Positions 33,770 through 48,762 of a DNA stretch of 64,000 nt are shown piece after piece. The stretch covers positions 124,001 to 188,000 of the forward strand of contig NZ_JACFRN010000005.1 in the NCBI RefSeq assembly GCF_016100975.1. Direction: 5' to 3'. The stretch comes from Lactobacillus sp. W8174. GTDB lineage: Bacteria; Bacillota; Bacilli; Lactobacillales; Lactobacillaceae. The stretch's first letter is position 1. Each line of letters starts with the position of its first letter. The translations under genes and the position numbers were made by a program. Under the pieces are notes generated by a model. That model did no database searches and had not been told where the DNA came from. It saw nothing but the letters and a program-made list of their open reading frames with translations.

Positions 33770-33844
33770 AAGTAGCCTCCTTAAATTCCATTTGGTATTA
33801 TTGTGTATATATAGTTATTTATATCTTCGCAAATAAATTGAAAT

Positions 33845-33873
33845 TTTATATTTTTTATACAATAAATTTTCAA
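33845..33873 (-). promoter_or_regulatory. Promoter of the aldo/keto reductase gene
   Basis: TTGAAA (33868-33873), a 17-base spacer and TATAAA (33845-33850), leaving a leader of about 70 bases. Confidence 0.65.
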
Positions 33874-34059
33874 CCCTAATATAATTAATTGTAACACATG
33901 TTCATTAGCCTCTATTAATGCAAATTCACCTTTAAGTTGAAATATCAGAATTTCATTAAAACAGTTAAGTAAAAAAAATATTGTTTTTCTTTTCACAAGC
34001 TTTGCGATTGTATTTTTAAGAGTGACAATATAGAATCAAAAATAAAAAGGTGAATTCCA

Positions 34060-34800
34060 ATGACAAATAATTTAACAAATTCATTTCACTTATCTGGTAA
34101 AAAATGGTTATTAATACTATTTTCTAACATAATTGCATACTGCTGTTTAGTCATGCCTGGTATACAAATACCTGATAATTTAGTCTTTGATGAAAATCAT
34201 CCCTCTTTAGCAGCTGCTTGTTTTCAGTTGTTAATTGTAACCATTTTTTTAGTAATTCAAATAATCGGTGTCCAAATTGCTACTGGTAAAAGATGGCACC
34301 AATTATTTCACGTGCCACATGCTAAGGAATGGCTTTGGATTCTTGTTTTCTTTATCTTTGCCTACATCGTATCTGTGTTATCAGGCACTATTTCTCAAAA
34401 ATTATTTGGCTCTGTTTCAGGTAATGCAGCTGCAGGATTGACTATGAAGACGCCTCATGTTTGGCTCATTTTTCTTTATCAACGCTTTAGCAGCGCTATC
34501 CAAATATTGGGTGAAGAATTCTTAGCAATCATGCCCTTACTAGCTGTGACCCAATTAGCTGATTCTTGCCATATGCCTCACCCTTTATTATGGGGTAATA
34601 TTGTTTCGGCTTTAATATTTGCACTACTGCACCTATCAACTTATGACTACAATCTGGGTTATGTCATATTAGGATTGGCATTTACACGTCTAGTTTTAAA
34701 TTGGGCTTTCATCAAAACCCATAATATCTGGGTCAGCTTTTTAGTCCACTTCTTGTTTGATACAGTAGCTTTTCTAATTTTATTGTTAGCAACAAAGTAG
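34060..34800 (+). CDS. CPBP (Abi)-family membrane protein
   Basis: This 246-residue protein has about six to eight membrane segments and the CPBP/CAAX-protease motifs: GEEFLAIMP (motif 1), ALLHLSTYD (motif 2) and HFLFDTVAF (motif 3). The EExxxR arginine of motif 1 is replaced (EEFLAI), as in a subset of lactobacillus proteins near bacteriocin loci. Peptidase activity or bacteriocin immunity is possible but unproven. AAAAAGGTGAATTCC precedes the ATG. It stands alone with its own terminator. Confidence 0.82.
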   Translation: MTNNLTNSFHLSGKKWLLILFSNIIAYCCLVMPGIQIPDNLVFDENHPSLAAACFQLLIVTIFLVIQIIGVQIATGKRWHQLFHVPHAKEWLWILVFFIFAYIVSVLSGTISQKLFGSVSGNAAAGLTMKTPHVWLIFLYQRFSSAIQILGEEFLAIMPLLAVTQLADSCHMPHPLLWGNIVSALIFALLHLSTYDYNLGYVILGLAFTRLVLNWAFIKTHNIWVSFLVHFLFDTVAFLILLLATK

Positions 34801-34821
34801 AAAATTATTTTAAATAAATTT

Positions 34822-34860
34822 AAAATCATAACTGAAATTTTTCTGGTTATGATTTTTTTT
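34822..34860 (+). terminator. Terminator after the CPBP gene
   Basis: The stem AAAATCATAACT...GGTTATGATTTT is followed by a run of T. Confidence 0.88.
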
Positions 34861-35055
34861 GCACTAAATTAGGCCTTCTTAGGAAAAAATGACTCTCAGA
34901 TAGAAGCTTGAATGCCCACTTTACGGGGCAGCCCAATATTTCTCACATGTCTACTATGGAATACAAAATGTTTTAACCTTTAGCGATAAATTCTTTAACA
35001 CAATACCAAATTTGATTATGCGCTTTACTTTTAAGTGCCTTGTTAGTTAATGTGA

Positions 35056-35070
35056 TAATTGTTACAATTA
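35056..35070. promoter_or_regulatory. Operator of the TetR regulator
   Basis: A perfect palindrome, TAATTGT-T-ACAATTA, lies 55 bases before the TetR start, the usual type and place of a TetR autoregulatory site. Confidence 0.7.
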
Positions 35071-35125
35071 GACACAAGCAGTCAGTGTTAAAAATTCAAG
35101 AGTTGAGTTAAGGTGGGCAGTCAAA

Positions 35126-35710
35126 ATGAGCAGTAATGTTGAACAAAGAATCTTAACAGCTTTCTCACAATTATTAATTCACAATGGCTATCAAAGAACC
35201 ACTACTAAAAAAATTGCTCAAGTTGCTCGAGTTAACGAAAGTACCCTGTTTAGGCATTTTAAAGATAAACACGGCATTTTACAGCAACTCATATCTGAGT
35301 ACCATAATGATATTCAACTAATTGGTAAAAATTATCAGCTAGTCGGCAATTTAGAAAAAGACATTATAAATTTGTCTATTATATGTCAAAGCTTTATAAA
35401 ACAGCATCTAGCACTGTTTTTAACCGGCATTCGTGAATCACAAAATTTACCGGAACTGCAAACAGTGATTAAAAAGTTACTTGATTTACTCAGAGAAACT
35501 TTAGCTGAAAAGTTTGAACAAATGCAAAAGAGAGGAGAAATTGCTGAAGATATAGATAAAAAAATTGAAATTGACAACTTAGTTTTACTCAATTTAGGTC
35601 AAGCCATCATGCAGCATTCTTTTCCTAATTCTGTTTTTCAAACTCAATCCAACGCCTTTATGCAAAAAAATATTCGCACATACGCTCATCATTTAAAGCC
35701 TGAAAATTAA
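35126..35710 (+). CDS. TetR/AcrR-family regulator
   Basis: This 194-residue protein has an N-terminal TetR HTH (TTTKKIAQVARVNESTLFRHFKDKHG, about 25-50) and an all-helical ligand-binding C-terminus without recognisable specificity. It is a single gene with a perfect palindrome upstream and a strong terminator downstream. Neither neighbour is an obvious target, except possibly the CPBP gene in front of it. Confidence 0.88.
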   Translation: MSSNVEQRILTAFSQLLIHNGYQRTTTKKIAQVARVNESTLFRHFKDKHGILQQLISEYHNDIQLIGKNYQLVGNLEKDIINLSIICQSFIKQHLALFLTGIRESQNLPELQTVIKKLLDLLRETLAEKFEQMQKRGEIAEDIDKKIEIDNLVLLNLGQAIMQHSFPNSVFQTQSNAFMQKNIRTYAHHLKPEN

Positions 35711-35712
35711 CA

Positions 35713-35753
35713 AAACGGTCAGTTGAATTTATTGTCCAGCTGACCGTTTTTTT
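35713..35753 (+). terminator. Terminator after the TetR gene
   Basis: AACGGTCAGTTG...CCAGCTGACCGTT followed by seven T. Confidence 0.9.
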
Positions 35754-35780
35754 AATAATGTCAAATTTGCAAGTGTATGA

Positions 35781-36539
35781 TCACTTTTTGTTATTAAGAT
35801 AAATATTACTATCATTTTTGGAGTCAATAGTATAAATCATTTTGTCTCCTCTTACTACATAATGTGAAAACTCCAGCGGCTGATCAAATTGATTATAAAC
35901 AGTCTTGTTCACATCAAATAGTGGTACCACATTCGTTAATGCCAATAATCTGGCTTGCTCACTGCTGGGTAGGATGGTACTAATTTCACGATATGAACTT
36001 GCTAAAGTTTCATGATACTTATCTGCCAGGTATTTGTATAGTGATGTTTCTTCATGAATATTTCTGAGTAAATCAGGAAAACGTTCAGCTGATAACCACG
36101 CTTCATCAATTGCCATGGGCACATTTCCTGTTTGCGATATTCTTTTAATGTAGACTAAATCTGTTTGTTCAGGCAATTGTAAAGTCTTAGCAATTTTAGC
36201 GTTTTGTAATATTTCTCTTTTTAAAATGATCTTTTTATTTGTCTTAGACCGCGACTCAGCAAATTCAGAAAATCCTTCAATTTGTTCCAGCCTCCCCGTC
36301 AATTTTTTGACATTAACATAGGAGCCTTTACCCTGAATAGTAACTACCAGTCCTTCATCAGTCAATAATTTCAGAGCTTTCCGCACTGTTATTCTGCTAA
36401 CCTGATATTTTTGACACAAATATTGTTCACTTGGCAATTTTTCATCAGTTTTAAAGATATTTTGCTGAATCTTTTGTTTGATATCTAAGTAAATTTTTTT
36501 GTAAAGTGGTACGCCAGCTATTGTTTTGACAGAATTCAT
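35781..36539 (-). CDS. GntR/HutC-family regulator with UTRA domain (FrlR-like candidate)
   Basis: This 252-residue protein has a winged helix (about 8-75; LPSEQYLCQKYQVSRITVRKAL, VVTIQGKGSYV) and a UTRA effector domain (about 95-245). UTRA regulators bind sugar phosphates or amino-sugar phosphates; FrlR of Bacillus is one and senses fructosamine phosphates. Here it follows the frl-opp-dfsB genes but is separated by a terminator, with its own promoter region containing a long inverted repeat. AAGGAAG sets the ATG at 36539 over an upstream in-frame GTG. Control of the frl genes is inference from position. Confidence 0.85.
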   Translation of the reverse strand: MNSVKTIAGVPLYKKIYLDIKQKIQQNIFKTDEKLPSEQYLCQKYQVSRITVRKALKLLTDEGLVVTIQGKGSYVNVKKLTGRLEQIEGFSEFAESRSKTNKKIILKREILQNAKIAKTLQLPEQTDLVYIKRISQTGNVPMAIDEAWLSAERFPDLLRNIHEETSLYKYLADKYHETLASSYREISTILPSSEQARLLALTNVVPLFDVNKTVYNQFDQPLEFSHYVVRGDKMIYTIDSKNDSNIYLNNKK

Positions 36540-36598
36540 TATCACACTTCCTTAATTATTCAATATTACTAAATTAAAATAGAAATAACAAACTCAAA

Positions 36599-36660
36599 GA
36601 TTAGTATAACAGTCATTTAAAATTATAACTGTATTAAAAGTTGGGACGATTATACTAATC
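36599..36660. repeat. Inverted repeat upstream of the GntR gene
   Basis: GATTAGTATAA (36599-36609) and its exact complement TTATACTAATC (36650-36660) flank 40 bases. With GTC/GAC just inside, 14 of 16 positions match. It covers the likely promoter and could be a two-site operator for repression by looping. Confidence 0.55.
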
Positions 36661-36788
36661 AAAGCACTCTAAAAATATTTTAAATCCTGTAATATTGACT
36701 TAGAGCCATAGCTGTATATGTTTTCTCACCAGTATTTTAAATAAATTGACCAAACTCTAATTTATTTAATAAGTAGCCCATTCAAAAC

Positions 36789-36819
36789 AAAAACCGTCAG
36801 CTTTTACGCTAACGGTTTT
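36789..36819 (-). terminator. Terminator of the frl-opp-dfsB run
   Basis: AAACCGTCAGC-TTTTAC-GCTAACGGTTT has a T-rich flank on the minus strand. Confidence 0.85.
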
Positions 36820-36828
36820 CATGAGCCC

Positions 36829-37362
36829 TTATTTCAAGGATCTTTGATATTTTCGTAACTTCTTTAAAGCCCATTCATAATGACTGCTAGTATTTGCAAT
36901 GAAGTAAGTACCCAATGCATTATTACCAGTCCAAGGAAAAACATTTTTTTGAAAGAGTTGTTCTTCCGTAAAGCTATCAAGCAAAGCCATAGTTTGTTTA
37001 TGACTAGTCGCCAGCAGCTTTTCTGCTTCTGCAAGTGAGGTAGATTGGTGTTTTTGCCAAAATTCTTGATTCATTTCACCATAATTGCGCCAATTATACC
37101 CTTCAGGCAAAAATTCTTTGCTTTCACCAGATTGATTGCTTTTAACCCATTCTAGCAACAATTTTTGCCATTCATATAAATGAATCAAAACGTCACGTAC
37201 ATTATGATCTCTCTTCCAGTGGGCTTCTTTTAATTTACTCGTATCAAAATTGAAACTGCCAGTGCGAGCTTTTTCCGGCAACTTAGCAATTAAATCAACT
37301 ATCTTTTGGTATGACGAATTACTTGCAGCAACTAATTCTTGCTTGCTTTTAGGACGTGGCAT
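36829..37362 (-). CDS. ClbS/DfsB-family four-helix protein
   Basis: This 177-residue protein matches the ClbS/DfsB family by eye: MPRPKSKQEL start, RDHNVRDVLIHLYEWQKLLL, EGYNWRNYGEMN, KHQSTSL, PWTGNNALGTY and SHYEWALKKL. The fold is a DinB-like four-helix bundle. ClbS hydrolyses the colibactin cyclopropane; most relatives are uncharacterised. It starts 61 bases after oppF with no clear terminator between, so it may belong to the frl-opp transcript. A link to reactive glycation products would be speculation. Confidence 0.85.
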   Translation of the reverse strand: MPRPKSKQELVAASNSSYQKIVDLIAKLPEKARTGSFNFDTSKLKEAHWKRDHNVRDVLIHLYEWQKLLLEWVKSNQSGESKEFLPEGYNWRNYGEMNQEFWQKHQSTSLAEAEKLLATSHKQTMALLDSFTEEQLFQKNVFPWTGNNALGTYFIANTSSHYEWALKKLRKYQRSLK

Positions 37363-37423
37363 CTATTATTCCTTTTCTTGATAATATTAAAAATTATTTA
37401 TCAATATTTTATCATAAAGAGTT

Positions 37424-38326
37424 TTACTTAGTCCACGACCCATCGTCTATTACATAGTGATCATTGCCTAAATCTACCATTTCTTTATTTTCATACTGTT
37501 GCCTGAATGCATGATAATCTGATAATTTTTTATTTTGTTCTGCTACCGGATTAGTCGTGGGAATAGCAGTTAGCAAACTTTTTGTATAAGGGTGCACAGG
37601 ATCATCAAAAATTGCTTCTGTAGGTCCAATTTCGACAATATGTCCCAAATGAATCACGCCTATATGACTTGAAATGTGCTTAACCATTGCTAAGTCATGG
37701 GCAATAAAGAGCATGGCACTGCCACTTTCTCTTTGTATTCGTTGGAGAAGGTTGACAACTTGGGCTTGTACTGAAACATCCAAAGCGGAAATAGCTTCAT
37801 CTGCAATAATAAGTCTAGGATGCATGATCACCACTCTGGCAATACCAACCCTTTGTCTTTGACCTCCGGAAAGTTCTTGTGGGTAACGGTTAACAAAGGA
37901 TGAATCAAGCCCGACTACTTTGAGCATTTCTATAACCTTTTGCAATTTTTCATCCTTAGATAATTCTGGATAATGAATATCTAACCCCAGCTTGACTATG
38001 TCACCGACTTTTTTACGAGGATTTAGTGAAGACATAGGATCTTGAAAAATCATTTGCATGTCTTTACGCAATTTGGCAGTCTGCTTTTTACTTAAATGAC
38101 CCGCTATTTGTTCACCCTCAAAAATCACCTCACCTGCAGTAGGCCAATAAAGACGAATAATTGAACGTCCAATAGTGGTCTTTCCACTTCCTGACTCACC
38201 CACCAGGCCAAAAGTCTCACCATTAGCAATGTTAAAGGACACATCATCTACCGCTTTAACTATTTTTTTATTTGCAACTGGAAAATATTGCTTCAAATGA
38301 TGAACTTCTAAGATATTTTTAGTCAT
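37424..38326 (-). CDS. oppF: Oligopeptide ABC transporter ATPase OppF
   Basis: This 300-residue ATPase has Walker [11 protein letters not shown]-loop [13 protein letters not shown], signature LSGGQRQRV, Walker [13 protein letters not shown], and the OppF-type tail [12 protein letters not shown]. It pairs with OppD to drive peptide uptake. It begins 3 bases after oppD. Confidence 0.93.
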
Positions 38327-38329
38327 CGC

Positions 38330-39394
38330 TTATGATGCTCCCTTCATTTTTAAAATTCTTTTTTGCAAAACTGGTGGAATTGATACTTTAGGAGCCCTCT
38401 TATCTAGGAGCCAAGTTGCAGCATAATGGTGGTCGTTAATTTTAAACATTGGCGGTTGCTTTTTAAAGTCAATATTTAAGGCGTACTTATTTCTGGGAGC
38501 AAAAGCATCACCAACAATTGGCTGTGTTAAGTCTGGAATCGTGCCTGCAATAGTTGGCAGTTCGTCAACTTTTTCATTAATATCAGGTACTGATTCAAGC
38601 AAACCCCAGGTATATGGGTGGCGAGGTTCAAAAAAGATATCTTGGCTCGTTCCCGTCTCAACTATTTTTCCAGCGTACATGACGTTCACATAGGTTGCAA
38701 TATTGGCAACTACTCCCAGATTATGAGTGATAAAAATGACAGATAATTTCCTTCTTTTCTGGATATCTTTAATCAGGTTCAAAATTTTTGCCTGAATAGT
38801 AACATCCAATCCCGTTGTTGGCTCGTCACAGATCAGTAAACTAGGATTTCCAGCCAAGGCTATGGCAATAACAATTCTTTGTCTCATGCCCCCAGAAAGC
38901 TGGTGTGGGTACTGGTTTTGAACAACCTGCATATTTTGAATGCCAACGGTTTCAATTAAACTAAGCACCCGTTCATTGATTTGATCCTTATTCATCTCGG
39001 GATGAGAAGACTTAACTGCCTCAGCAATTTGTTTGTTAATTTTCATGGTGGGATCAAGAGAGGTCATCGGGTCTTGAAAAACCATTGCTATTTCCTTGCC
39101 TTTAATGCGGTTTTGCATAATCTTAGGACTAATTTTTAATAAATCCACAGTTTGCGGACCATTTTCAGTCTGATAAGTGAAATTGATCTCACCGGCTTTA
39201 ATTATTTGATTGGCCTCTTTTTCGCCCATGATTGGTTTGACACTGGCCGACTTGCCACAACCGGATTCACCAACCAAGGCAACTGTTTCACCCTTTTTTA
39301 CCTGATAACTTATCCCCCTGACAGCTTGCACTTCTCCATGATCGGTATGATAGGCTACTTGTAAATTTTTTATTTCTAAAACTGTTTCGGTCAT
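38330..39394 (-). CDS. oppD: Oligopeptide ABC transporter ATPase OppD
   Basis: This 354-residue ATPase has Walker A GESGCGKS, Q-loop MVFQDPMTSLDP, signature LSGGMRQR, Walker B LLICDEPTTGLD and HPYTWGLLESVP, but the C-terminal iron-sulfur/zinc cysteine cluster of many OppD proteins is not seen. It forms the motor with OppF. It lies 8 bases after oppC. Confidence 0.93.
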   Translation of the reverse strand: MTETVLEIKNLQVAYHTDHGEVQAVRGISYQVKKGETVALVGESGCGKSASVKPIMGEKEANQIIKAGEINFTYQTENGPQTVDLLKISPKIMQNRIKGKEIAMVFQDPMTSLDPTMKINKQIAEAVKSSHPEMNKDQINERVLSLIETVGIQNMQVVQNQYPHQLSGGMRQRIVIAIALAGNPSLLICDEPTTGLDVTIQAKILNLIKDIQKRRKLSVIFITHNLGVVANIATYVNVMYAGKIVETGTSQDIFFEPRHPYTWGLLESVPDINEKVDELPTIAGTIPDLTQPIVGDAFAPRNKYALNIDFKKQPPMFKINDHHYAATWLLDKRAPKVSIPPVLQKRILKMKGAS

Positions 39395-39402
39395 AATCTT
39401 AC

Positions 39403-40311
39403 CTAACTTCCTTCAATAGCATCCCGCAAGCCATCCGCAATAATATTAAAGCTCAGCATAATTAGTGCTAAAAATAAAACTGGGAAAATAACCATGTACG
39501 GGTAAACGATAGCTTGGGTATAACCATCATTGATCATCGTTCCTAACGATGCTAATGGTGCCGGAACACCTAAACCGATAAAGGCCAAGAATGCTTCCAA
39601 AAAAATTGCGTTCGGAATAGATAACATAAATGTGGTAATTATTTGTCCTAATGTATTGGGTAAAATTTGAGAGAAAATAATTTTAATATCAGATTCTCCC
39701 ATTGTCTTTGCTGATAAAACATACTCGCTGGTTTTCAGTTCCAACACCTGTGCGCGAACTATTCTACTCATATTAATCCAGCCGACAATCATCATGGCCG
39801 TAATTATGCTTACTAGACCTGGTTTCATAACCAGAACCAGCAATGTAACAATAATGATCATAGGAATAGTACTGAGAATTTCTGTTATTCTTTGCATGAA
39901 TAAATCGATTTTGCCACCAAAATATCCTGAAATTAGACCATAACTAGTACCAATAACCAGATCAATTGCCATAGCCACTAATGCAACCCTTAGTGAAACT
40001 GACGTACCAGCCGCAACTCTTACAAAAATGTCTCTGCCTAGGTTATCCGTTCCAAACCAATGACCATTAACACCAGGAGCTAAATTAGACTGGTTAGGAT
40101 ACGGCGTAGTGGGTGAGTATTGACTAAGGTGAGGTGCCAGAATAGCTATTAAAGCAATAATAATTAAAACAACTGCGCTAATCACTGCACCTTTATTTTT
40201 CAAAAAGCGATGCCAAACCAACTGCCCATATGAATAAGATTTACCAGAATAATGGTCAACTGTTTCCGATTTATGGGCAAAATCAAAATCATTATTTTCT
40301 ATATTAGTCAT
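39403..40311 (-). CDS. oppC: Oligopeptide ABC transporter permease OppC
   Basis: This 302-residue permease has an N-terminal OppC_N segment (SVVLIIIALIAILAPHLS region), the FGTDNLGRDIFVRV motif and about six membrane segments with an EAA loop. It forms the pore with OppB. It is 2 bases after oppB. Confidence 0.93.
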   Translation of the reverse strand: MTNIENNDFDFAHKSETVDHYSGKSYSYGQLVWHRFLKNKGAVISAVVLIIIALIAILAPHLSQYSPTTPYPNQSNLAPGVNGHWFGTDNLGRDIFVRVAAGTSVSLRVALVAMAIDLVIGTSYGLISGYFGGKIDLFMQRITEILSTIPMIIIVTLLVLVMKPGLVSIITAMMIVGWINMSRIVRAQVLELKTSEYVLSAKTMGESDIKIIFSQILPNTLGQIITTFMLSIPNAIFLEAFLAFIGLGVPAPLASLGTMINDGYTQAIVYPYMVIFPVLFLALIMLSFNIIADGLRDAIEGS

Positions 40312-40313
40312 AA

Positions 40314-41246
40314 TTACTTGCCCTCATCTAGTCTAATACGTGGATCTATCAATCCATAGAGAATATCAACAATTAGCATAATGCTGATAAAAAGCACTGC
40401 ATAAAAGAAGGTTATGCCTAAAACAACATTATAATCATTAGCCTGAATAGCACTAATATACAAAGTACCCAGGCCTGGGATAGCAAAAGCTTTTTCAATT
40501 ACCATACTTCCAGCAAGTAGGTCAATCATCAGTGGTGCTAAAACTGTAATAACTGAAATTAAAGTGTTTCTGATAACATGATGTCCGATCAATTGGAACT
40601 TCTTAATACCCTTTGAATCCGCTAAACGATAATAATCGGAATTCATAATATCAATCATGTCGTTTCTGACGTACCTTTCAATACTTGCCATAGTAAAAGT
40701 ACTCAATGCTATCGTTGGCAGAATGCTGGAAACAAATGGCTGACTGGGTTGGTATGTACCTGGGAAGACCATCAACTTGTAAGAAAATATGATTGAAACA
40801 ATCAGAGCTACTACAAAGTTAGGAAGACTTATTCCTAAAACAGAGATGCCAGTCATTAAGTTATCCCAAATTGTACCTCTTTTGATCGCTGCCAAAATTC
40901 CCATCAGAAAGCCTAAAACCGAGCCTAGTACAGTAGCCTGTAAACCTATTTGGAGTGAAATAATAAAATGTTGCAAAATCATTGTAGTAACCGGTGTATT
41001 AACCTGAACTGTGTACGAAACACCAAAATCACCAGACAACATATTTTTCAAGTAATTAAAAAATTGTAATGGCACTGGACCATCTAAACCATATTTATGA
41101 TAAAGTGCCGCTACTTGAGCATGTGACATTTTTTCATCATTAAATGGCGAACCAGGCATTGCCTTTTCCATAATAAAAAGAATCAAAGTAATCAAAAATA
41201 ATGTAATCATTGCAATTAAGATTCTTTTCAAGACATACTTTTTCAA
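40314..41246 (-). CDS. oppB: Oligopeptide ABC transporter permease OppB, TTG start
   Basis: This 310-residue permease has the OppB N-terminus (YVLKRILIAMITLFLITLILF), the MPGSPF motif, KYGLDGPVPLQF and six membrane segments. The start is a TTG at 41246 with a near-perfect AGGAGGG 7 bases before it, and no better ATG lies nearby. The weak start plus the hairpin after oppA should lower permease output relative to the binding protein. Confidence 0.92.
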   Translation of the reverse strand: MKKYVLKRILIAMITLFLITLILFIMEKAMPGSPFNDEKMSHAQVAALYHKYGLDGPVPLQFFNYLKNMLSGDFGVSYTVQVNTPVTTMILQHFIISLQIGLQATVLGSVLGFLMGILAAIKRGTIWDNLMTGISVLGISLPNFVVALIVSIIFSYKLMVFPGTYQPSQPFVSSILPTIALSTFTMASIERYVRNDMIDIMNSDYYRLADSKGIKKFQLIGHHVIRNTLISVITVLAPLMIDLLAGSMVIEKAFAIPGLGTLYISAIQANDYNVVLGITFFYAVLFISIMLIVDILYGLIDPRIRLDEGK

Positions 41247-41282
41247 GTTTTTCCCTCCTATCTTCTTCTATAAGCAAACAGA

Positions 41283-41301
41283 GCTGAGATTGTATCCCAG
41301 C
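41283..41301 (-). promoter_or_regulatory. Stem-loop between oppA and oppB
   Basis: In the minus-strand RNA, GCUGGGAU-ACA-AUCUCAGC forms an 8-bp stem (one G-U pair) followed by a moderately U-rich tail. Such elements after binding-protein genes stabilise the upstream message or partly terminate, giving excess OppA. Confidence 0.65.
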
Positions 41302-41323
41302 CCCGTTAATACTTATAGTGAAA

Positions 41324-42943
41324 TTATTTAATTGAAGCATATTTGAAGAAGAATGGTACACCTGCAATATGCATCGGTAAATCTTTAATATTAGATCTTT
41401 CCAAAACTGGTGCGCCAATTTGATAAAGTGGTGGGCAAGAGGCACTGTCAATTAGGATATTATTTGCCTTGAGAAGCAATTTGTATCTCTTAGCTTGATC
41501 AGTTGTTTGATCAGATTGAGCCATTAACTTATCAAATTCTGAATTTGCCCAGCGACCGTAATTACTGTCGTTCTTAGATTGATACATACTCAAGATCGCT
41601 GTTGGATCTGCATAATCTGGTCCCCAACGAGTTAAAGTAGCGTCATAAGTAGCTTTTGACATCTTATCAGTTCTGGTCTTCTTTGCTACTTGTTGCAGTG
41701 TCACTTTCATGCCAGGAAGATGTTTTTCAACTTGTGCCTTGATATAAGCAGCTACGTTAGCATATGAAGGATCACTGTCATCATAAAGTAAGGTAAATGA
41801 CCTTAGATTAGTTGCTTTTTTGGCCTTATTCCAATACTTTTTAGCTTGAGCTGGTGAATACTCGTAAAGATTAGTAGTTGATTCATCTGCAAAATCTTTG
41901 CCTGTTGTCGGATTCTTAACCAAATCTTTCATAACCATAGAATGAGAAGGAATTGAACCATCTTTTAGGATGTGAGTTGTTATTTCTTTACGATTAATAC
42001 TGCAAGAAATTGCCTTACGCAAATCAGCATTATCTAATCCCGGTTTTTTCAGATTAAACATAATGTACTGGGTAAAATTACCAACATCATTGACAAAGTT
42101 CTTATCTTTTCTATATTTAGAAACAAGCTGACCGCTTAAGTGAACATAGTCTGCACTGCCGTTTTCGAAGGCAATTGCGGCTTTTTCTGGATCGGTAATA
42201 ATATCAAGCTTAACATTCTTTATTTTGACATTTTTGGCATCCCAATACTTCGGGTTTTTAACCAACTGGATAGTATTGTCACCTAATTTCCAGCCCTTAA
42301 TTTGATACGGTCCAGAATAAATTAAGTGATTAGAATCTTGTGCAAATTTCTTTCCTGCTTTTTCAAAATATTTTTGATTAACGGGGGCAAAATCACTAAA
42401 TGCCAGCAATTTGTTCATGTAAGGTACAACATGATCAAGTTGCACTACTAGAGTTTTAGGACCTGCAGCTTTAACACCTAATGACTTAACCGGCTTCTTG
42501 CCAGCAACAATGTCATTGGCATTTTTTATTCCGGCCGCACCTGGCTGGAAGTTAAAGGCTGAGGCAATCTTAGGATCTGATAACCGTCGCCAGGCAAAAA
42601 CAAAATCATTAGCAGTTACTGGATCACCATTTGACCATTTAGCATTCTCACGAATTGTATATGTCTTGGTTAATCCATGATTACTCGTTTTAACTTTAGA
42701 AGCCAATGCCAATTGGGGCTTATCGTGGGCGTCAATAGTATAAAGCCCTTCTGTTGTATTAGCAACGACAGTTGAGGAAGTGTTTTGATACGCTAAAATT
42801 GGGTCAAGAGAGTCAACCGTGGCATTTTGGACAACAGTGATTTTATCTTGATTTTTAGTACCAGAACTAGAATTTTTCTGGCATCCTGTTATTAGCAAAC
42901 CTACACATGCAATTGCAGTAGCAAACAATGCACTTTTTTTCAT
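41324..42943 (-). CDS. oppA: Peptide-type ABC transporter substrate-binding lipoprotein (OppA-like)
   Basis: This 539-residue SBP_bac_5 (cluster C) protein has a signal peptide with lipobox LLITGC (Cys21) and the LASKVKTSNHGLTKTYTIRENAKWSNGDPVTANDFVFAWRR opening shared by oligopeptide receptors (residue run shown only as landmarks WSNGDPVTANDF). It captures ligands outside the cell. The ATG at 42943 is preferred over an upstream GTG. It lies 15 bases after frlD, so it is co-expressed with the fructosamine enzymes, and the ligand may be a glycated peptide or amino acid. Confidence 0.9.
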   Translation of the reverse strand: MKKSALFATAIACVGLLITGCQKNSSSGTKNQDKITVVQNATVDSLDPILAYQNTSSTVVANTTEGLYTIDAHDKPQLALASKVKTSNHGLTKTYTIRENAKWSNGDPVTANDFVFAWRRLSDPKIASAFNFQPGAAGIKNANDIVAGKKPVKSLGVKAAGPKTLVVQLDHVVPYMNKLLAFSDFAPVNQKYFEKAGKKFAQDSNHLIYSGPYQIKGWKLGDNTIQLVKNPKYWDAKNVKIKNVKLDIITDPEKAAIAFENGSADYVHLSGQLVSKYRKDKNFVNDVGNFTQYIMFNLKKPGLDNADLRKAISCSINRKEITTHILKDGSIPSHSMVMKDLVKNPTTGKDFADESTTNLYEYSPAQAKKYWNKAKKATNLRSFTLLYDDSDPSYANVAAYIKAQVEKHLPGMKVTLQQVAKKTRTDKMSKATYDATLTRWGPDYADPTAILSMYQSKNDSNYGRWANSEFDKLMAQSDQTTDQAKRYKLLLKANNILIDSASCPPLYQIGAPVLERSNIKDLPMHIAGVPFFFKYASIK

Positions 42944-42958
42944 AATTATCACTCTTTT

Positions 42959-43774
42959 CTAAAAAGATTTCTGATGACCAAAGCCACCAGATAGTTGGCA
43001 AGTAGCTGCAGCATTTTTACTAGCAGCTAAAGCAGCTTCTTGCAGATTGTTTTGATTTAAATAGGAAACTAGAAAGCCGGCAATAAAGCTGTCACCTGCT
43101 CCCATCGTATCGACAATCTTCACAGTTTGTGGTTCTTGATAAAGGGACTCTTGCGATGTCAACAAGAAAGCTGGCTTGGCACCGCGTGTTATAACAATGA
43201 CTTCTGGTCCTAAAGTGAGATATTTTTTGGCAAAACCTTCTACCTGTTCATCAGACATCTCCGAACCAGAAAAGAAAGCGTAATCTACAAAAGGTAAAAC
43301 ACGTTTAAAATAACTTTCATTGCGAGAATCTGAAAAATCAAATGATACTTTGGCAATATGATGCAGTTCATCAAGATAATTTTCAATTCCTGAATCAATT
43401 CCAACGTGAGCTACATCAAATTTTTTTATTTCAGCAAAGTCTGTTGGTGTAAGCCTTAAAGATAATAAATGCATTACTGAATTTTTAGGACCAGGGGCAA
43501 AAGTTCTATCACCATCATCTGTGAGAATAACCCGAGGCTGAGCTGTAGGTGCATAGACCTTACGACAGTTAATAAGTTCCACTTTTTCTTCAGTTAAAGA
43601 TTGCTTGATATGCTGTGCGCGATCGTCATCCCCAAACATTCCTAGGTAAGCTGATACATCAGCTCCTGCCTTTTTGGCGTCGACTGCTACATTGACACAA
43701 TTTCCGCCTGGAAAAAATACCTTTTGCTTGATGTATGTGTCAGCCACATTGTCACCAACTGCAATTATTTTCAT
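42959..43774 (-). CDS. frlD: Fructoselysine 6-kinase-like PfkB sugar kinase
   Basis: This 271-residue PfkB kinase resembles E. coli FrlD by eye, with GDNVADTYI near the start, FPGGNCVNVAV, MFGDDDRAQ and the catalytic DTMGAGDSFIAGFL. FrlD phosphorylates fructose-lysine or similar Amadori compounds at C6. The directly upstream FrlB-like deglycase supports this reading; without it the gene could be any small PfkB kinase. Confidence 0.85.
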   Translation of the reverse strand: MKIIAVGDNVADTYIKQKVFFPGGNCVNVAVDAKKAGADVSAYLGMFGDDDRAQHIKQSLTEEKVELINCRKVYAPTAQPRVILTDDGDRTFAPGPKNSVMHLLSLRLTPTDFAEIKKFDVAHVGIDSGIENYLDELHHIAKVSFDFSDSRNESYFKRVLPFVDYAFFSGSEMSDEQVEGFAKKYLTLGPEVIVITRGAKPAFLLTSQESLYQEPQTVKIVDTMGAGDSFIAGFLVSYLNQNNLQEAALAASKNAAATCQLSGGFGHQKSF

Positions 43775-43789
43775 GAGTTGCAGCCCTTT

Positions 43790-44767
43790 TTAATAATCCA
43801 GATGTCCCATATAACGACGAACATCTAACGAGTGGCCTCTTTCATAAGCAAATCCTTCAGCTAGTTGACGGAAAGCAACTCCTGAAAGAATCTGAGAATA
43901 GTATTCTTTAAAGTCGTCGTCTACTTCATGCATATCAAAGTCAGCATCGTCAATTACATAAACTTTTTGACTGTGCTTTTTGGCAAAGTCAATTACGCGC
44001 TGATCCATTTTTCTAGTTACGCCTAATCCTTTGCAAATGATAAATGGCACATCAAAATCTGTTACTTCGAATGGACCATGGAAATACTCGGCAGAATTGA
44101 TGTAACCACTATGAATCCATTGCATTTCTTGAAGCCAGCATGCTGAGAATGAATATGTTTCTCCAGTATTAATACCTGAGCCTACAGCATAAATTAATTT
44201 TTCACGTTTTAATTCACTAGTCCATTTCTTAGCAGTTTCGCCAAATTGCTTTCTCACCCTATCAGCCATAGTTTCTAAACTAGCCAAAGCCTGCAAGCCT
44301 TTTTCATATTTATTATCACCAGTTACAGACTTCAATAGGCTAAACAAGAAACCATATAAAACCCCATTATTTAAATCAGAAGCATCTGTTCCTTTGCCCC
44401 AGCTATAATGCAAAGTGAAATCTGAGTTCTTTTCTAAGTCAGAACCTGCCGTGTAGGTAATGCCGACTGTTAAAGCCCCTTTACTTTTGGCAAAATTAAC
44501 TGCCTCATTTGTTTCTGGTGTAGTACCTGAATGAGAACAAGAAACTACTAAACTATGTTTGCCTAAATCATGAGGATTACGAGTTGTGAATTCTCGTGCA
44601 GGTAAAATTGTAGCAGGGATATCGCATTCGCGATTGAAAATATATTCAGCTGGCTGCATAAAAGCCATTGATCCTCCACAAGCTACAAAGTAAACATGAT
44701 TAATGCCATCAAGCTTTTCTGTAGCGGCAAGTGCATTTTTAATTTCTTGTTGATATTCTTTTTTCAT
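43790..44767 (-). CDS. frlB: Fructoselysine-6-phosphate deglycase-like SIS protein
   Basis: This 325-residue double-SIS protein has VYFVACGGSMAFMQP, VVSCSHSGTTPET, QWIHSGYINSAEYFHGPFE and a C-terminal RGHSLDVRRYMG that resembles the FrlB ending. FrlB splits fructoselysine 6-phosphate into glucose 6-phosphate and lysine. Lack of a glutamine amidotransferase domain excludes GlmS. GAGAGG 6 bases before the ATG at 44767 sets that start over 44785. It is the first gene of frlB-frlD-oppABCDF. Confidence 0.87.
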   Translation of the reverse strand: MKKEYQQEIKNALAATEKLDGINHVYFVACGGSMAFMQPAEYIFNRECDIPATILPAREFTTRNPHDLGKHSLVVSCSHSGTTPETNEAVNFAKSKGALTVGITYTAGSDLEKNSDFTLHYSWGKGTDASDLNNGVLYGFLFSLLKSVTGDNKYEKGLQALASLETMADRVRKQFGETAKKWTSELKREKLIYAVGSGINTGETYSFSACWLQEMQWIHSGYINSAEYFHGPFEVTDFDVPFIICKGLGVTRKMDQRVIDFAKKHSQKVYVIDDADFDMHEVDDDFKEYYSQILSGVAFRQLAEGFAYERGHSLDVRRYMGHLDY

Positions 44768-44809
44768 TTTTAACCTCTCAATCATTCTTGTTATATGATG
44801 TTATATTAT

Positions 44810-44847
44810 AAGATAATCGCTGGATTTTAATATGTCAAGCGTTTTCT
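44810..44847 (-). promoter_or_regulatory. Promoter of frlB-frlD-opp with cre-like sequence
   Basis: A perfect -35 TTGACA (44833-44838) is followed after 17 bases by TATCTT (44810-44815). The -35 overlaps GAAAACGCTTGACA, a cre-like core with mismatches, so CcpA control is possible. Between promoter and gene lie two direct TATAAC copies 10 bases apart. Confidence 0.5.
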
Positions 44848-44940
44848 TAAAATTAATTAAGAAAAATGATCAATTAGTAAAAATCTGATAAAAAGTTTGT
44901 GAACTGGTATAAACCAATTGCCTATATATCAAAGCACGCA

Positions 44941-44975
44941 AAAAAAGCACTTCACAAACTCGTGAAATGCTTTAA
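44941..44975 (-). terminator. Terminator of the glnQHPP operon
   Basis: AAAGCACTTCAC-AAACTC-GTGAAATGCTTT with a T run on the minus strand. Confidence 0.85.
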
Positions 44976-44999
44976 ATAATTATTAATAAATATCTTACT

Positions 45000-45653
45000 T
45001 TATGACAAATGTTTACCAATCACACTACCAATAATTGACAGTGTAAAACAAACTGCAAAGTACAATACAGCTAAGGCAGCAAACATCGGCAAAATATAAT
45101 TTGCATTTTGACCATAAATAACTTGTGCGTGTTGCATCATTTCCGGCACAACAATGATTGTTGCCAAAGAGGTGTCCTTAATTAGAGAAACAAACTGACT
45201 GATAATCGTTGGAATCATGTTTTTATAAGCCTGAGGTAAAACGACATGCCATAAAGCCTGAACAAAGGACATGCCAGTTGATCTTGCACCTTCCATCTGA
45301 CCGATAGAAACAGATTGAATACCAGAACGCACAATTTCAGCAATCATGCAGGATTCAAATACTGTCATGGCAATAATCGCCGCCGGTATAGTTTCCGGTC
45401 TTAAGCCAAAGTTTGGCAATCCAAAATAAGTAAAGAAGATAATTAGCAACAAAGGAATGTTACGAATAATATCAATAACGAAACCTACAATTGCTGAAAC
45501 ATATTTAATTTTAGAATATCTGATTATTCCTAAAATGGAACCAATAATAAAACTTAAAATGACTGAAATTACGGAGATGTAAATAGTTACCCAGAGGCCC
45601 ATCAACAAAAAGCGTACATTAAGCCACGAAAAGGCGTTAACCCAATTTTGCAT
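45000..45653 (-). CDS. Polar amino-acid ABC transporter permease (GlnP-like), second
   Basis: This 217-residue HisM/GlnP-type permease has five or so membrane segments and the family loop EGARSTGMSFVQALWHVVLPQA. It pairs with the permease encoded just upstream. There are 16 bases between the two. It is last in glnQ-glnH-glnP-glnP. Confidence 0.92.
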   Translation of the reverse strand: MQNWVNAFSWLNVRFLLMGLWVTIYISVISVILSFIIGSILGIIRYSKIKYVSAIVGFVIDIIRNIPLLLIIFFTYFGLPNFGLRPETIPAAIIAMTVFESCMIAEIVRSGIQSVSIGQMEGARSTGMSFVQALWHVVLPQAYKNMIPTIISQFVSLIKDTSLATIIVVPEMMQHAQVIYGQNANYILPMFAALAVLYFAVCFTLSIIGSVIGKHLS

Positions 45654-45669
45654 TTTCTAGTACCTCCTT

Positions 45670-46308
45670 TTAACCTAATTTCTTTTCCAAGTGCCGCATA
45701 TAATAACTAATAGGCAGAGTAACAATCAGATATAAAACACCTACAACTAAATAACTGTTAATAGTGTCAAAAGTAGTAGACGCAATTGAATTAGCTTGGT
45801 ACATTAAATCAAATCCTGCCACAAAGGCTAAAACTGAAGAGTTTTTGACCAAGTTAACAAACTGATTTCCTAAAGGTGGTATTACTATCTTGAATGCTTG
45901 AGGCAAAATGATATAGCGCATTGCCTGCCAGTAGGTCATACCAGTTGATCTTGCACCTTCCATTTGACCGCCGGAAACAGACTGAATTCCTGAACGAATT
46001 GTTTCGGCAATAAAAGCAGAAGTATACAGTGTTAAGCCAATAGTCCCTGCAGTAAACCCATTGATTTTGACCACATACATCGGAATTACTAGATAGAAAA
46101 ACATAGTGATTACAAGCAAAGGAATGTTACGCATTATTTCCACATAGGTATGTCCAATTACACGCATTACTTTACTTGGAACAACTTCCATAATTGCAAA
46201 TATAGTTCCGATTATTAAACTGAAAAATAAAGCAATTACACTAGATAGTATTGTCCAGCCCAAACCAACAAACAGCTGGCTGCTGAATTTTGAAAAAATA
46301 TTAATCAT
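45670..46308 (-). CDS. Polar amino-acid ABC transporter permease (GlnP-like), first
   Basis: This 212-residue permease has the same fold and EGARSTGMTYWQAMRYIILPQAF loop as its partner, from which it probably arose by duplication. Its start overlaps the end of the binding-protein gene by 4 bases. Confidence 0.92.
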   Translation of the reverse strand: MINIFSKFSSQLFVGLGWTILSSVIALFFSLIIGTIFAIMEVVPSKVMRVIGHTYVEIMRNIPLLVITMFFYLVIPMYVVKINGFTAGTIGLTLYTSAFIAETIRSGIQSVSGGQMEGARSTGMTYWQAMRYIILPQAFKIVIPPLGNQFVNLVKNSSVLAFVAGFDLMYQANSIASTTFDTINSYLVVGVLYLIVTLPISYYMRHLEKKLG

Positions 46309-47120
46309 CGGCGATACAGCTCCTTATACTTAAATCCTGGAACATCGCCAAACCACTTTTTAATTAAGCGATTATATTCACCATCATGCTGCATCTCAAG
46401 AACTGCCTTGTCTACAGCTTCAGTAAATGAGGTTTGTCCCTTATTAACCGCAACACCGTATGGTTCAACAGTAAAGGTACCGCCACGAACTTCGTAGCCC
46501 GGATTTTGCACCGCTAAACCAAATAAAATTCCGTTATCAGTAGTTAGAGCATCTCCTTGATGTGACTTCAGTGCATTCATTGCTTGGGCATAATCCTGCA
46601 ATTCAATCACTTTTGCTTTAGGAGCCACCTTTTTAATGTTTTGAACTGAATTTGCGCCTACAACACCGATAACTGTTTTACCGTTTAGATCCTTAGTACT
46701 TTTAATTGAAGAATCTTTAGGAACTAAAAGTGACTGACCCGCATCAAAGTATGACTTTGAAAAAGATATAATCTTTTTACGCTCGGGAGTGATTGACATC
46801 GTGGCTATAACGGCATCCACATTTCCGTTCTTTAAAAGCGGAATTCTGGATTGAGATGTTGTAGTAACAAACTCAGCTTTTCCTTGAGGTCCTAATATAT
46901 GCTTTGTAATATGCTTTGCCATATCAACATCAAAACCCTTTTGCTGACCATCCTTAACGTCAATTAAGCCAAAAAGTTTAACATCACCTTTAACACCCCA
47001 AACAATAGTATTTGCTTGTTTGGCATTATTTAAAACGGATTGATCACTAAGACTTTTACCACAACCAGTTAACATCAAAATACACGCTAATAAAGGAAAC
47101 AGCCAAAATTTCTTTTTCAT
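46305..47120 (-). CDS. Amino-acid ABC transporter substrate-binding lipoprotein (GlnH-like)
   Basis: This 271-residue SBP_bac_3 protein has a signal peptide with lipobox LMLTGC (Cys20) and the family pattern GFDVDMAKHI, ATMSITPERKKIISFS and YGVAVNKGQ. It probably binds glutamine, glutamate or aspartate; the exact ligand cannot be read. It lies 11 bases after the ATPase gene. Confidence 0.92.
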   Translation of the reverse strand: MKKKFWLFPLLACILMLTGCGKSLSDQSVLNNAKQANTIVWGVKGDVKLFGLIDVKDGQQKGFDVDMAKHITKHILGPQGKAEFVTTTSQSRIPLLKNGNVDAVIATMSITPERKKIISFSKSYFDAGQSLLVPKDSSIKSTKDLNGKTVIGVVGANSVQNIKKVAPKAKVIELQDYAQAMNALKSHQGDALTTDNGILFGLAVQNPGYEVRGGTFTVEPYGVAVNKGQTSFTEAVDKAVLEMQHDGEYNRLIKKWFGDVPGFKYKELYRR

Positions 47121-47131
47121 AATTGGCCTCC

Positions 47132-47869
47132 TTAGTGAGAAATAATTTTACTCAAAAATTGTTGTGCCCGCTCCGTCTTAGGCTGCTTAAAGAAGCTTTC
47201 GCTATCATCATCCTCAACAATTCGACCCTGGTCCATAAAGATAACTCTATTTGCTACCTCTTTAGCAAAGCCCATTTCGTGAGTAACAATTAATGAAGTC
47301 ATACCACTTTCATTGGTAACTTTCTTCATAACTTGTAAAACATCATCAATCATTTCCGGATCAAGAGCAGAAGTTGGTTCATCGTATAAAATCAGTTTTG
47401 GTCTCATTGCCAATGTTCTGGCAATAGCAACACGCTGCTTTTGACCACCAGAAATTTGTGAAGGCATATTATGTGCCCATTTGCGTAACCCAACCATATC
47501 AAGTAAATCTAACGCCTGTTTTTTATTTTCCTCTTCAGGCATGTGGCTTACTATTCTGGGAGCCAGCATAATATTTTCCAATACATCTTTGTTTTTGTAT
47601 AAATTAAAGTGCTGGAAAACCATCCCAACATCACTTCGTAAGATGTTGAGGTTCGTCTTTGGATCTGAAAGATCGTGACCGTTAACTACTAACTTACCTT
47701 TCTGGATTGATTCAAGTCCGTTTACGGTCCGTACCAAAGTACTCTTACCCGAACCAGATGGTCCAATCAGAACCACCGTTTCACCTTCATCAATCTCTAA
47801 ATTAATGTCGTGCAGTGCATGAAAATGGCCATAAAATTTTTGCACGTCATGGAACTCTATCATCGACAT
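47132..47869 (-). CDS. Polar amino-acid ABC transporter ATPase (GlnQ-like)
   Basis: This ATPase has about 245 residues with Walker A GPSGSGKST, VGMVFQHFNLYKN, signature ISGGQKQRV and Walker B LILYDEPTSALDP. AAAGGGG about 8 bases before the ATG at 47869 is the best ribosome site, although the frame opens with a TTG at 47893. It leads the uptake operon that ends just before frlB. Confidence 0.93.
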   Translation of the reverse strand: MSMIEFHDVQKFYGHFHALHDINLEIDEGETVVLIGPSGSGKSTLVRTVNGLESIQKGKLVVNGHDLSDPKTNLNILRSDVGMVFQHFNLYKNKDVLENIMLAPRIVSHMPEEENKKQALDLLDMVGLRKWAHNMPSQISGGQKQRVAIARTLAMRPKLILYDEPTSALDPEMIDDVLQVMKKVTNESGMTSLIVTHEMGFAKEVANRVIFMDQGRIVEDDDSESFFKQPKTERAQQFLSKIISH

Positions 47870-48200
47870 TGTCATCGCCCCTTTCATAATCAATGCATGA
47901 AATAATAAGTTGTAGAATCTATTTTACTATAACCGTTAAGAATTTTAAAAGTAATACAGTGTTTTTAATAAAAATTTATAGAAAGATCTGCTTAATTCAC
48001 ATTGACTTGAAAGTCACCTAGTTAGCGTTATGACGGGAAAGTATAGTAATAAAAAGCTTTTTTGTATGTTCATTAATAATAATTTAATGTCAAAAAATGC
48101 CAGTTATAATTAAAAATATCTGTGAAAAATATACTCTTATTTGCATTTTTTCTTCCAAAAATAGTTTGACTGGCATACACTCTAATTAAGGAGAAAACTT
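47870..48200. other. Divergent intergenic region glnQ / msrC
   Basis: It holds the candidate glnQ promoter and the leader of the GAF-domain gene (AAGGAG before 48201). I see no RNA element or further gene in it. Confidence 0.5.
47926..47954 (-). promoter_or_regulatory. Candidate promoter of glnQHPP
   Basis: TTACTT (47949-47954), 17 bases, TATAGT (47926-47931). Confidence 0.4.
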
Positions 48201-48650
48201 ATGGATAAAGAAAAAACTTATAAATTACTTTTAAAACAGGCTGGCAGCCTTCTTCAAGATGAACATGACTTAATTGCCAACATGAGTAACATTAGTGCAC
48301 TGCTTTTTAATGGCTTACCCGAAGTAAGTTATGCTGGATTTTATCGCTTCCAAGAGCAAGAGCTCATTTTAGGACCATTTCAAGGGCCAGTCGCCTGCAT
48401 GCGTATTCAATTAGGAAAAGGCGTATGCGGCACAGCTGCACAAACCGGTCAGATTCAAATTGTTCCCGATGTTCACAAGTTTAGTGGTCATATTGCCTGT
48501 GATGCCAATACCAATTCAGAAATCGTTCTTCCCATTATCCACGATAAAAAACTTGTCGCTGTTCTTGACCTTGACAGCAATGACTTTGCCAGATTCGACC
48601 AAATTGATGCTCAATATTTAGCAAAAATAGCAGAACTGCTATTTAATTAA
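48201..48650 (+). CDS. msrC: Free methionine-R-sulfoxide reductase (GAF domain)
   Basis: This 149-residue GAF protein has the three fRMsr cysteines at 66, 76 and 100, the same 10 and 24 residue spacing as Cys84/94/118 of the E. coli enzyme (GPVACMRI, GKGVCGTAA, HIACDANTNSE). It reduces free methionine-R-sulfoxide, part of oxidative-stress repair. It is a single gene with AAGGAG ribosome site and its own terminator. Confidence 0.92.
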   Translation: MDKEKTYKLLLKQAGSLLQDEHDLIANMSNISALLFNGLPEVSYAGFYRFQEQELILGPFQGPVACMRIQLGKGVCGTAAQTGQIQIVPDVHKFSGHIACDANTNSEIVLPIIHDKKLVAVLDLDSNDFARFDQIDAQYLAKIAELLFN

Positions 48651-48666
48651 ATGCAAGAAATAAAAT

Positions 48667-48708: not shown

Positions 48709-48762
48709 ATAAATTCTAAACTCTCTTAAATCTCTGACTAAAAGTTATTCCGTTAAACTTTT

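Follow-up and report, generated by a model that had tools for sequence, protein, structure and literature searches.

Bacterial use of Amadori products has so far been described with three kinds of entry: permease, sugar-type ABC importer and PTS. The B. subtilis frlBONMD-frlP system, as set out in PMC12632257, has an FrlB-type deglycase, an FrlD-type kinase and a GntR-type FrlR. The enzyme pair favours alpha-glycated amino acids. Import is by sugar-type FrlONM with FrlP/MsmX, and the FrlONM genes separate frlB from frlD. The E. coli frlABCDR operon also has FrlB, FrlD and an FrlR-like regulator. Its substrate is epsilon-fructoselysine and it includes the FrlA permease and FrlC epimerase. In Intestinimonas AF211, genes for a kinase, a deglycase and a four-gene ABC importer (AF_00952-00955) form a fructoselysine cluster. 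This importer (PMC4697335) may be of peptide type. Other FrlB loci are PTS-linked. For example, an Enterococcus faecium plasmid encodes an FrlB-like SIS protein and a GntR regulator alongside mannose-type PTS genes, with no annotated PfkB kinase in the cluster.

Here, we analysed a 64,000 nt window of Lactobacillus sp. W8174 DNA (GCF_016100975.1, NZ_JACFRN010000005.1, positions 124,001-188,000 of the forward strand). The locus resembles that of B. subtilis in its deglycase, kinase, GntR-type regulator and predicted alpha-glycated substrates. Unlike B. subtilis, it encodes a full Opp importer complete with two ATPases of its own. The most likely reading is a fructosamine operon whose dedicated Opp importer takes up N-fructosyl amino acids or short glycated peptides. 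Among the titles and abstracts listed by open-access literature searches, in which few full texts were covered, we found no description of the frlBD-Opp pairing.

Results

The initial annotation read the locus as frlB-frlD-oppABCDF. Open frames on the minus strand at 44785-37424 bear this out (Table 1). Only 15 bases separate frlB from frlD, whereas B. subtilis has the FrlONM genes there. The distance of 15 bases given for frlD to oppA is correct when counted from the frlD stop to the oppA ATG; counted to the GTG at the ORF start, it is 6 bases. Subsequent gaps are 77 (oppA-oppB), 2 (oppB-oppC), 8 (oppC-oppD), 3 (oppD-oppF) and 61 bases (oppF-DUF1706). The hairpin predicted between oppA and oppB is a possible processing or attenuation site. 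The importer is complete within one operon: a family 5 binding protein, two permeases and two ATPases (OppA, B and D scanned).

The DUF1706/DinB-like gene, inside the span first annotated, was not found in Opp-type loci L038-L041 and L051. It is likely a passenger. Judging from sequence and fold, the hairpin that follows likely closes the operon ahead of gntR. At the other end, the glnQHPP genes (47893-45000) precede frlB. A terminator-like hairpin follows them, so frlB is likely the first gene of the operon. Similar inverted repeats occur at this place upstream of frlB in several relatives. The glnQHPP genes are directly upstream in 10 of 11 Lactobacillus loci, and a gntR gene takes their place in L041. 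They do not adjoin frlB in Weissella bombi or the Clostridial locus L093; the upstream sequence of L103 is too short for this comparison. For this reason, and given the hairpin, we left them out of the operon. No Rfam family matched 32000-49000 at its gathering score.

Table 1. Features of the frl-opp locus in window coordinates
Feature	Position	Strand	Basis
Terminator-like hairpin after glnQHPP, before frlB	44944..44973	-	13-pair stem and T tail; -15.3 kcal/mol
Promoter-like TTGACA-17-TATCTT for frlB	44810..44838	-	10/12 consensus bases; consensus match only
Palindromic operator-like element TATAACATCATATAA, predicted FrlR-type site, just upstream of frlB	44789..44808	-	Pattern search
frlB-like, SIS-domain, predicted fructosamine-6-phosphate deglycase	43790..44785	-	PF01380; 3eua
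frlD-like, PfkB, predicted fructosamine 6-kinase	42959..43774	-	PF00294; NCBIfam fructoselysine 6-kinase best model
oppA, family 5 solute-binding lipoprotein, frl-linked clade (frlOppA)	41324..42943	-	PF00496 (SBP_bac_5)
Predicted hairpin, oppA-oppB intergenic	41263..41322	-	Sequence; stretch folds at -28.8 kcal/mol, without shuffle control
oppB, permease	40314..41246	-	Best NCBIfam model Opp3B, 348 bits (cut-off 480)
oppC, permease	39403..40311	-	Place and order conserved in Opp-type loci; no family scan
oppD, ATPase	38330..39394	-	Best NCBIfam matches are oligopeptide OppD models
oppF, ATPase	37424..38326	-	GESGSGKTT and LSGGQ motifs, conserved order; no family scan
DUF1706/DinB-like gene	36829..37362	-	PF08020, 192.8 bits
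Terminator-like hairpin, operon end	about 36786..36822	-	Sequence and fold; missed by consensus scan
gntR/UTRA regulator, predicted FrlR	35781..36545	-	Best NCBIfam model NF008491

The best solved relative of the FrlB-like protein is 3eua (residues 25-331 aligned, 280 bits), an entry named putative fructose-amino acid-6-phosphate deglycase. Other SIS chains scored 192 and 184 bits. GlmS-type chains reached at most 59 bits, and we rejected a GlmS or GlcN-6-P deaminase identity on these scores. Glu220 and His236 are invariant in all 19 aligned sequences; we take them to be the catalytic Glu and His, with roles drawn from FraB work. The FrlD-like protein has a PfkB fold (PF00294, 114.8 bits). Among 22 families, it best matched NF007321, the E. 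coli fructoselysine 6-kinase equivalog (158.5 bits, cut-off 247). The FrlB-like protein scored 101.3 bits against NF008481, the E. coli fructoselysine-6-phosphate deglycase equivalog (cut-off 430). Because both scores lie below the curated cut-offs, neither protein was filed as an equivalog. The initial FrlB/FrlD-like reading of the two enzymes is upheld.

Epsilon-glycated lysine (fructoselysine), or peptides containing it, could be the cargo, as for E. coli FrlABCD. Fructoselysine peptides are expected from dietary protein breakdown, and Asp443 of OppA could meet the free alpha-amine of such a peptide. However, the FrlB-like protein is 41-46% identical to B. subtilis FrlB (pieces) and 26% to that of E. 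coli. For the FrlD-like protein, the values are 40% (B. subtilis piece) and 32%. By sequence, both enzymes are nearer to the B. subtilis pair, with its reported preference for alpha-glycated amino acids. Hence, N-terminal (alpha) glycation fits better. In addition, none of the operon genes looked frlC-like. We consider fructoselysine an unlikely cargo.

FrlB (at least 62% identity), FrlD (57%) and OppA (60%) are encoded in 11 of 75 Lactobacillus genomes, always side by side. Among the matches listed for these 75 genomes, none has only one of the three at that identity and no further OppA match exceeds 40%. This all-or-none pattern rules out a chance neighbourhood of frlBD and opp. An early TAA is reported in the FrlB match of genomes G006 and G032, which still have frames of 326 and 336 aa open. 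The same gene order, proposed earlier as something to seek in other genomes, also occurs in further Bacillota loci. Sorted by importer, 80 FrlB loci comprise 53 with a sugar-type ABC system, 13 with a PTS, 11 with an Opp set and 3 with none assigned. The Opp-type loci include Weissella, Sporolactobacillus, two Clostridia and one Bacillota MAG; none was also typed sugar-ABC. The initial annotation rightly named FrlA permeases and sugar-type ABC systems as known importers, but left out the PTS. Several PTS-linked FrlB-like sets are also present in the window's own genome. In an FrlB tree, the Opp-type rows require two changes, not one (three unassigned loci labelled sugar-ABC; L049, L072 and L074 omitted, where the matched stretch starts with a stop before the start codon). 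These rows may have a single origin.

The palindrome at the frlB promoter is the sole window match to a 20-base pattern with up to three mismatches. It is also the sole match in the genome to a 16-base pattern with up to one mismatch. Eight of the 11 Opp-type loci carry it without mismatch; it is weak in L050 and was not found in L058 or L095. With at most one mismatch, it occurs in 20/56 sugar-ABC or unassigned loci and 2/13 PTS loci. Hence, this predicted operator is common to many sugar-ABC frl operons. Consensus promoter matches numbered 51, about equal to the shuffle mean of 43.4. We dropped a cre-like sequence overlapping the -35 box, as the promoters of most relatives lack it. The gntR/UTRA regulator is 28% identical to E. 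coli FrlR and scored 176.6 bits against NF008491 (cut-off 269), compared with 490 bits for E. coli FrlR.

The oppA product begins with a lipoprotein-like signal. Its AlphaFold2 model (pLDDT 89) has the DppE/OppA fold. Fold and component set are common to oligopeptide importers (OppA 5kzt, PrgZ 4faj, DppE 8azb), whose ligands are peptides. The fold also binds sugar-amino acid opines. Agrobacterium AgaA binds agropinic acid (6hlx) and MoaA binds mannopinic acid (6tfq); by structural alignment, they are 18% and 21% identical to OppA. The sole tie of these opine binders to FrlB/FrlD-like genes here is an AgaA-like protein of Allorhizobium ampelinum pAtS4c. Both there and in the window, a dipeptide-type ABC importer is encoded next to an SIS protein, a PfkB kinase and a GntR regulator. 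However, the binding protein of that cluster is AgaA-like (318 bits), with about 20% identity to the window OppA. It is therefore probably a separate recruitment. That cluster also has oxoprolinase genes. Structure searches gave no Amadori-ligand title among the matches listed, a result that carries no evidential weight.

An ordinary peptide importer could share the operon with frlBD by happenstance, with FrlD and FrlB using fructosamines that arise inside the cell or enter otherwise. Consistent with this, the closest solved structures to OppA bind plain peptides. OppB, C, D and F are 57, 57, 61 and 57% identical to those of the Clostridial frl-linked L093, only slightly more than the 57, 49, 58 and 57% for those of the frl-free G775. 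However, such an OppA was never found without frlBD among the matches listed from 75 Lactobacillus genomes, the genome has five other SBP_bac_5 genes and the palindrome at the frlB promoter recurs in other frl operons. Furthermore, in an IQ-TREE analysis, frl-linked OppAs of Bacilli and Clostridia form one clade, separate from the ordinary OppAs sampled (67 hand-picked rows, short search, no bootstrap; 17 of 20 frl rows, three identical or close ones omitted). Comparing 34 clade rows, 17 with directly established gene context, with 31 others (P0171 and E. coli OppA left out) identified 23 clade-typical positions. We regard such happenstance as quite improbable. The five other SBP_bac_5 genes, the comparison with frl-free opp genes and the separate clade led us to reject a general-purpose opp identity. 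As first annotated, frlBD is tied specifically to an Opp-type importer, by a single OppA clade, a shared operator sequence and all-or-none inheritance.

We mapped the pocket onto the site residues of E. coli OppA, a protein that itself has several of the 23 clade-typical residues. At position 109, 31/34 clade rows have Phe and 31/31 others have Tyr, a lead only. Asp443, presumably the residue that holds the peptide amine in OppA, is kept in 34/34 clade rows and 31/31 others. Being universal, it does not discriminate glycated from plain ligands.

Another OppA-imported amino-sugar conjugate, such as glucoselysine-like Heyns products or a cell-wall derived sugar-peptide, could be the substrate of the kinase and the SIS protein. 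This is just as improbable as the happenstance above: 3eua is well ahead of the other SIS chains, fructoselysine 6-kinase is the best kinase model and the palindrome is common to sugar-ABC frl operons.

Discussion

We propose, with a probability of roughly 70%, that the FrlB/FrlD-like genes of this conserved operon are served by a distinct ABC importer of the Opp type, whose cargo would be N-fructosyl amino acids or short peptides with N-terminal glycation. Several findings weigh against this: the nearest solved relatives of OppA bind plain peptides, its presumed amine-binding Asp is universal, the FrlB, FrlD and regulator scores fall short of the curated cut-offs, the operator is weak in L050 and was not found in L058 or L095, the Opp-type rows of the FrlB tree require two changes, and gene context is directly established for half of the clade rows. 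For ligand, enzyme activity and regulation, we infer the following course. OppA, a predicted surface lipoprotein, would capture the ligand and OppBC with OppDF would bring it into the cell. FrlD would then phosphorylate the imported N-fructosyl amino acid or peptide, and FrlB would cleave the product to glucose 6-phosphate and a free amine. The FrlR-type GntR repressor encoded nearby would bind the palindrome. Release would follow as phosphorylated fructosamine accumulates, a mechanism already proposed for FrlR of both B. subtilis and E. coli.

The nearest genomes belong to species that we take to be bee symbionts. Honey contains N-fructosyl amino acids, according to PMC12114437 and PMC11395089. 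Heated food or milk, suggested initially as the source, is therefore unlikely. For bee-associated hosts, honey is a plausible source of ligand.

A broader proposal stands at even odds. The frlOppA family, spread with frlBD in Bacilli and Clostridia, would be a separate family of binding proteins dedicated to N-fructosyl amino acids and to peptides glycated at the N-terminus, and part of the first peptide-type ABC importer of Maillard (Amadori) products. Bee-associated lactobacilli would gain both sugar and amino acid from aged honey and stored pollen.

The pairing, carried by Weissella, a number of lactobacilli and a few further Gram-positive bacteria, would give a known pathway a new point of entry. 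If our interpretation is true, a peptide-type importer extends the cargo to glycated peptides, which are products of glycated-protein digestion, and frlOppA is a marker gene for glycated-peptide use. The clade-typical positions of OppA could be matched to a new ligand within this set of binding proteins. The operon would also tie honey chemistry to the nutrition of bee-associated lactobacilli in a way that can be tested.

Results

Organisation of the frlB-frlD-oppABCDF operon

The genes from frlB through the DUF1706 gene likely form a single transcript with predicted limits, since hairpins lie after both the upstream glnQHPP genes and the DUF1706 gene. From frlB to the DUF1706 gene, successive gaps are 15, 15, 77, 2, 8, 3 and 61 bases. 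As the initial annotation stated, 15 bases separate frlD from the oppA ATG. A hairpin is also predicted in the oppA-oppB gap. OppA has a lipoprotein-like N-terminal signal (LITGC). OppB and OppD match Opp permease and ATPase models, respectively; oppC and oppF were named from gene order and sequence.

Features of the operon and its flanks (window coordinates)
Feature	Position	Strand	Remark
Terminator-like hairpin	44973-44944		3' end of upstream glnQHPP genes
frlB	44785-43790	minus	SIS domain
frlD	43774-42959	minus	PfkB domain
oppA	42943 (ATG) to 41324	minus	SBP_bac_5 domain
oppB, oppC, oppD, oppF	oppF ends 37424	minus	in this order after oppA
DUF1706 gene	37362-36829	minus	
Second hairpin			downstream of DUF1706 gene
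gntR	36545-35781		after DUF1706 gene, separate from the frlB-DUF1706 unit

The arrangement recurs in other species

We scanned one genome per species and used the best 80 of 559 confirmed FrlB relatives. Within ~7 kb of FrlB, the importer was a sugar-type ABC system at 53 of these 80 loci, a PTS at 13 and an Opp set at 11; none was assigned at three. The Opp-type loci belong to five Lactobacillus species, one uncultured Lactobacillus, Weissella bombi, Sporolactobacillus nakayamae (opp divergent), Caproiciproducens galactitolivorans, a Bacillota MAG (contig runs out in oppC) and a Clostridiales MAG. The same gene order occurs in two genomes of the Lactobacillaceae sample, G207 (locus L189) and G330 (L190). 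Their OppAs have identical counterparts in Weissella hellenica and W. bombi, respectively.

L. laiwuensis FrlB shares 98% identity with the window protein, the FrlBs of L. huangpiensis, L. kullabergensis and L. kimbladii share 97%, and L. apis FrlB shares 80%. These species are bee-dwelling, as are L. xylocopicola and W. bombi.

Some loci carry additional genes. Tandem oppA pairs, perhaps with different ligands, are present in L. apis (L036; 85/73% identical to the window OppA) and genome G032 (L037; 82/71%). In S. nakayamae (L058, 12200-17332), a second SIS/PfkB/GntR set adjoins the Opp-type locus and has amino-acid-type ABC matches instead. Amino-acid ABC matches also lie close to the sugar-ABC locus of Maledivibacter (L097), and Erysipelothrix (L084) has two FrlB matches in tandem.

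FrlB, FrlD and OppA occur together

The same 11 of 75 Lactobacillus genomes encode FrlB (at least 62% identity), FrlD (at least 57%) and OppA (at least 60%), adjoining on one contig. In the other 64, no FrlD passed E 1e-40. Outside the 11, OppA identity reached at most 40% among the matches listed (E 1e-98 or better). FrlBs of ~50% in G048 (one of the 11), G051 and G055 had no Opp matches within the fetched stretches (L042-L044). Among 397 Lactobacillaceae genomes, seven had FrlB at E 1e-70, four of them with at least 59% identity. These were the four with OppA of at least 63%, the next OppA being at most 41% among the matches listed. Across 398 genomes sampled at class level, OppA passed E 1e-112 only in the window's genome and G775 (41%). 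Five class-level genomes had FrlB at E 1e-85, G775 not being one of them; the 18 kb fetched with its opp set contained neither an FrlB nor an FrlD match.

Phylogeny of OppA and FrlB

In an IQ-TREE analysis of 67 OppAs (short search), all 17 frl-linked proteins fell inside one 34-row clade (SH-aLRT 99). Outside it lay 13 sampled Lactobacillaceae OppAs without frl, plus that of G775. FastTree also placed the frl-linked rows together (114 rows, including 20 frl-linked and 26 generic Lactobacillaceae OppAs). The clade has 23 typical positions. Nine OppA-FrlB pairs, among those compared, lay on equal-sized contigs. Four are loci already counted; the other five are new linkage hints (P0122, P0125, P0140, P0149 from Niallia, and P0161). 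In the FrlB tree, sugar-ABC, PTS and Opp types clustered strongly, with two changes for all three labels against a shuffled mean of 23.3. Opp-type rows of Bacilli lay apart from those of loci L093, L095 and L103. Hence, the importer clade is one but, given the split FrlB tree, the pairing may have had one origin or two.

A palindrome upstream of frlB

The palindrome TATAACATnATATAA starts 20-54 bases upstream of frlB, without mismatch in 8 of the 11 Opp-type loci. The pattern was derived from these loci, so independent support comes from the others: matches with at most one mismatch are present at 20 of the 56 loci of sugar-ABC or unassigned type and at 2 of the 13 with a PTS. Within the window's own genome, a 16-base form of the pattern occurs only at this site. 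All Opp-type loci but L095, where the contig ends, have a GntR match nearby (10 of 11; the L046 copy is cut by the locus end). For GntR of the window, L051 and L103, the best model is one holding E. coli FrlR, with scores under its cut-off. In B. subtilis, FrlR was shown to act as a repressor and fructosevaline as an inducer (PMC12632257). Upstream of the window gntR (36599-36660) is an inverted repeat, GATTAGTATAA ... TTATACTAATC, unlike the frlB palindrome.

Discussion

Among the titles and abstract starts listed, mainly of open-access papers, none reports an Opp importer together with frlB/frlD; the initial annotation knew of no such description. Intestinimonas AF211 has a kinase, a deglycase and a four-gene ABC importer, of a class not given in the accessible text (PMC4697335); this cluster could be a precedent. 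The Allorhizobium ampelinum pAtS4c cluster (L195, 224-14721) combines SIS, PfkB and GntR genes with an AgaA-like dipeptide-type importer, next to oxoprolinase genes. Its putative ligand is possibly N-fructosyl pyroglutamate or an opine lactam. The enzymes and the importer class are known; their pairing is specific and, within the literature covered, appears new.

FrlB matched 3eua, the structure of a putative fructose-amino acid-6-phosphate deglycase, with 280 bits. The window FrlB shares 26% identity with E. coli FrlB and 41-46% with two pieces of a B. subtilis FrlB; for FrlD the values are 32% with the E. coli protein and 40% with a piece of its B. subtilis counterpart. Amino acids glycated at the alpha position are the preferred substrates of the B. 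subtilis enzymes, and epsilon-glycated lysine is that of the E. coli enzymes (PMC12632257). Because the window enzymes are nearer to those of B. subtilis, we infer that alpha-glycated ligands are the better guess.

The window's genome has seven more FrlB-like SIS genes (24-37% identity) beside mannose-type PTS matches in five stretches (L171, L172, L173, L174 and L176); one of these genes is accompanied by another FrlD-like kinase. C13 carries an eighth SIS match, a weak one, outside these stretches. PTS sets that possibly serve glycated compounds seem plentiful in this genome.

Proline, valine, leucine, isoleucine, tyrosine and phenylalanine are reported to occur in honey as N-fructosyl derivatives (PMC12114437, PMC11395089). 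A study of Asian honeybees found fructoselysine/glucoselysine PTS genes to be commoner in Lactobacillus Firm-5 than in Gilliamella, and the accessible part of that report makes no mention of an Opp link (PMC9478171). A fructoselysine conversion gene (K19510) is among phage-carried genes of a honey bee metagenome (PMC12607879, in the part available). Relatives of the window OppA include proteins of W. hellenica, Leuconostoc and Niallia among the matches listed, which suggests that bees are not the sole setting.
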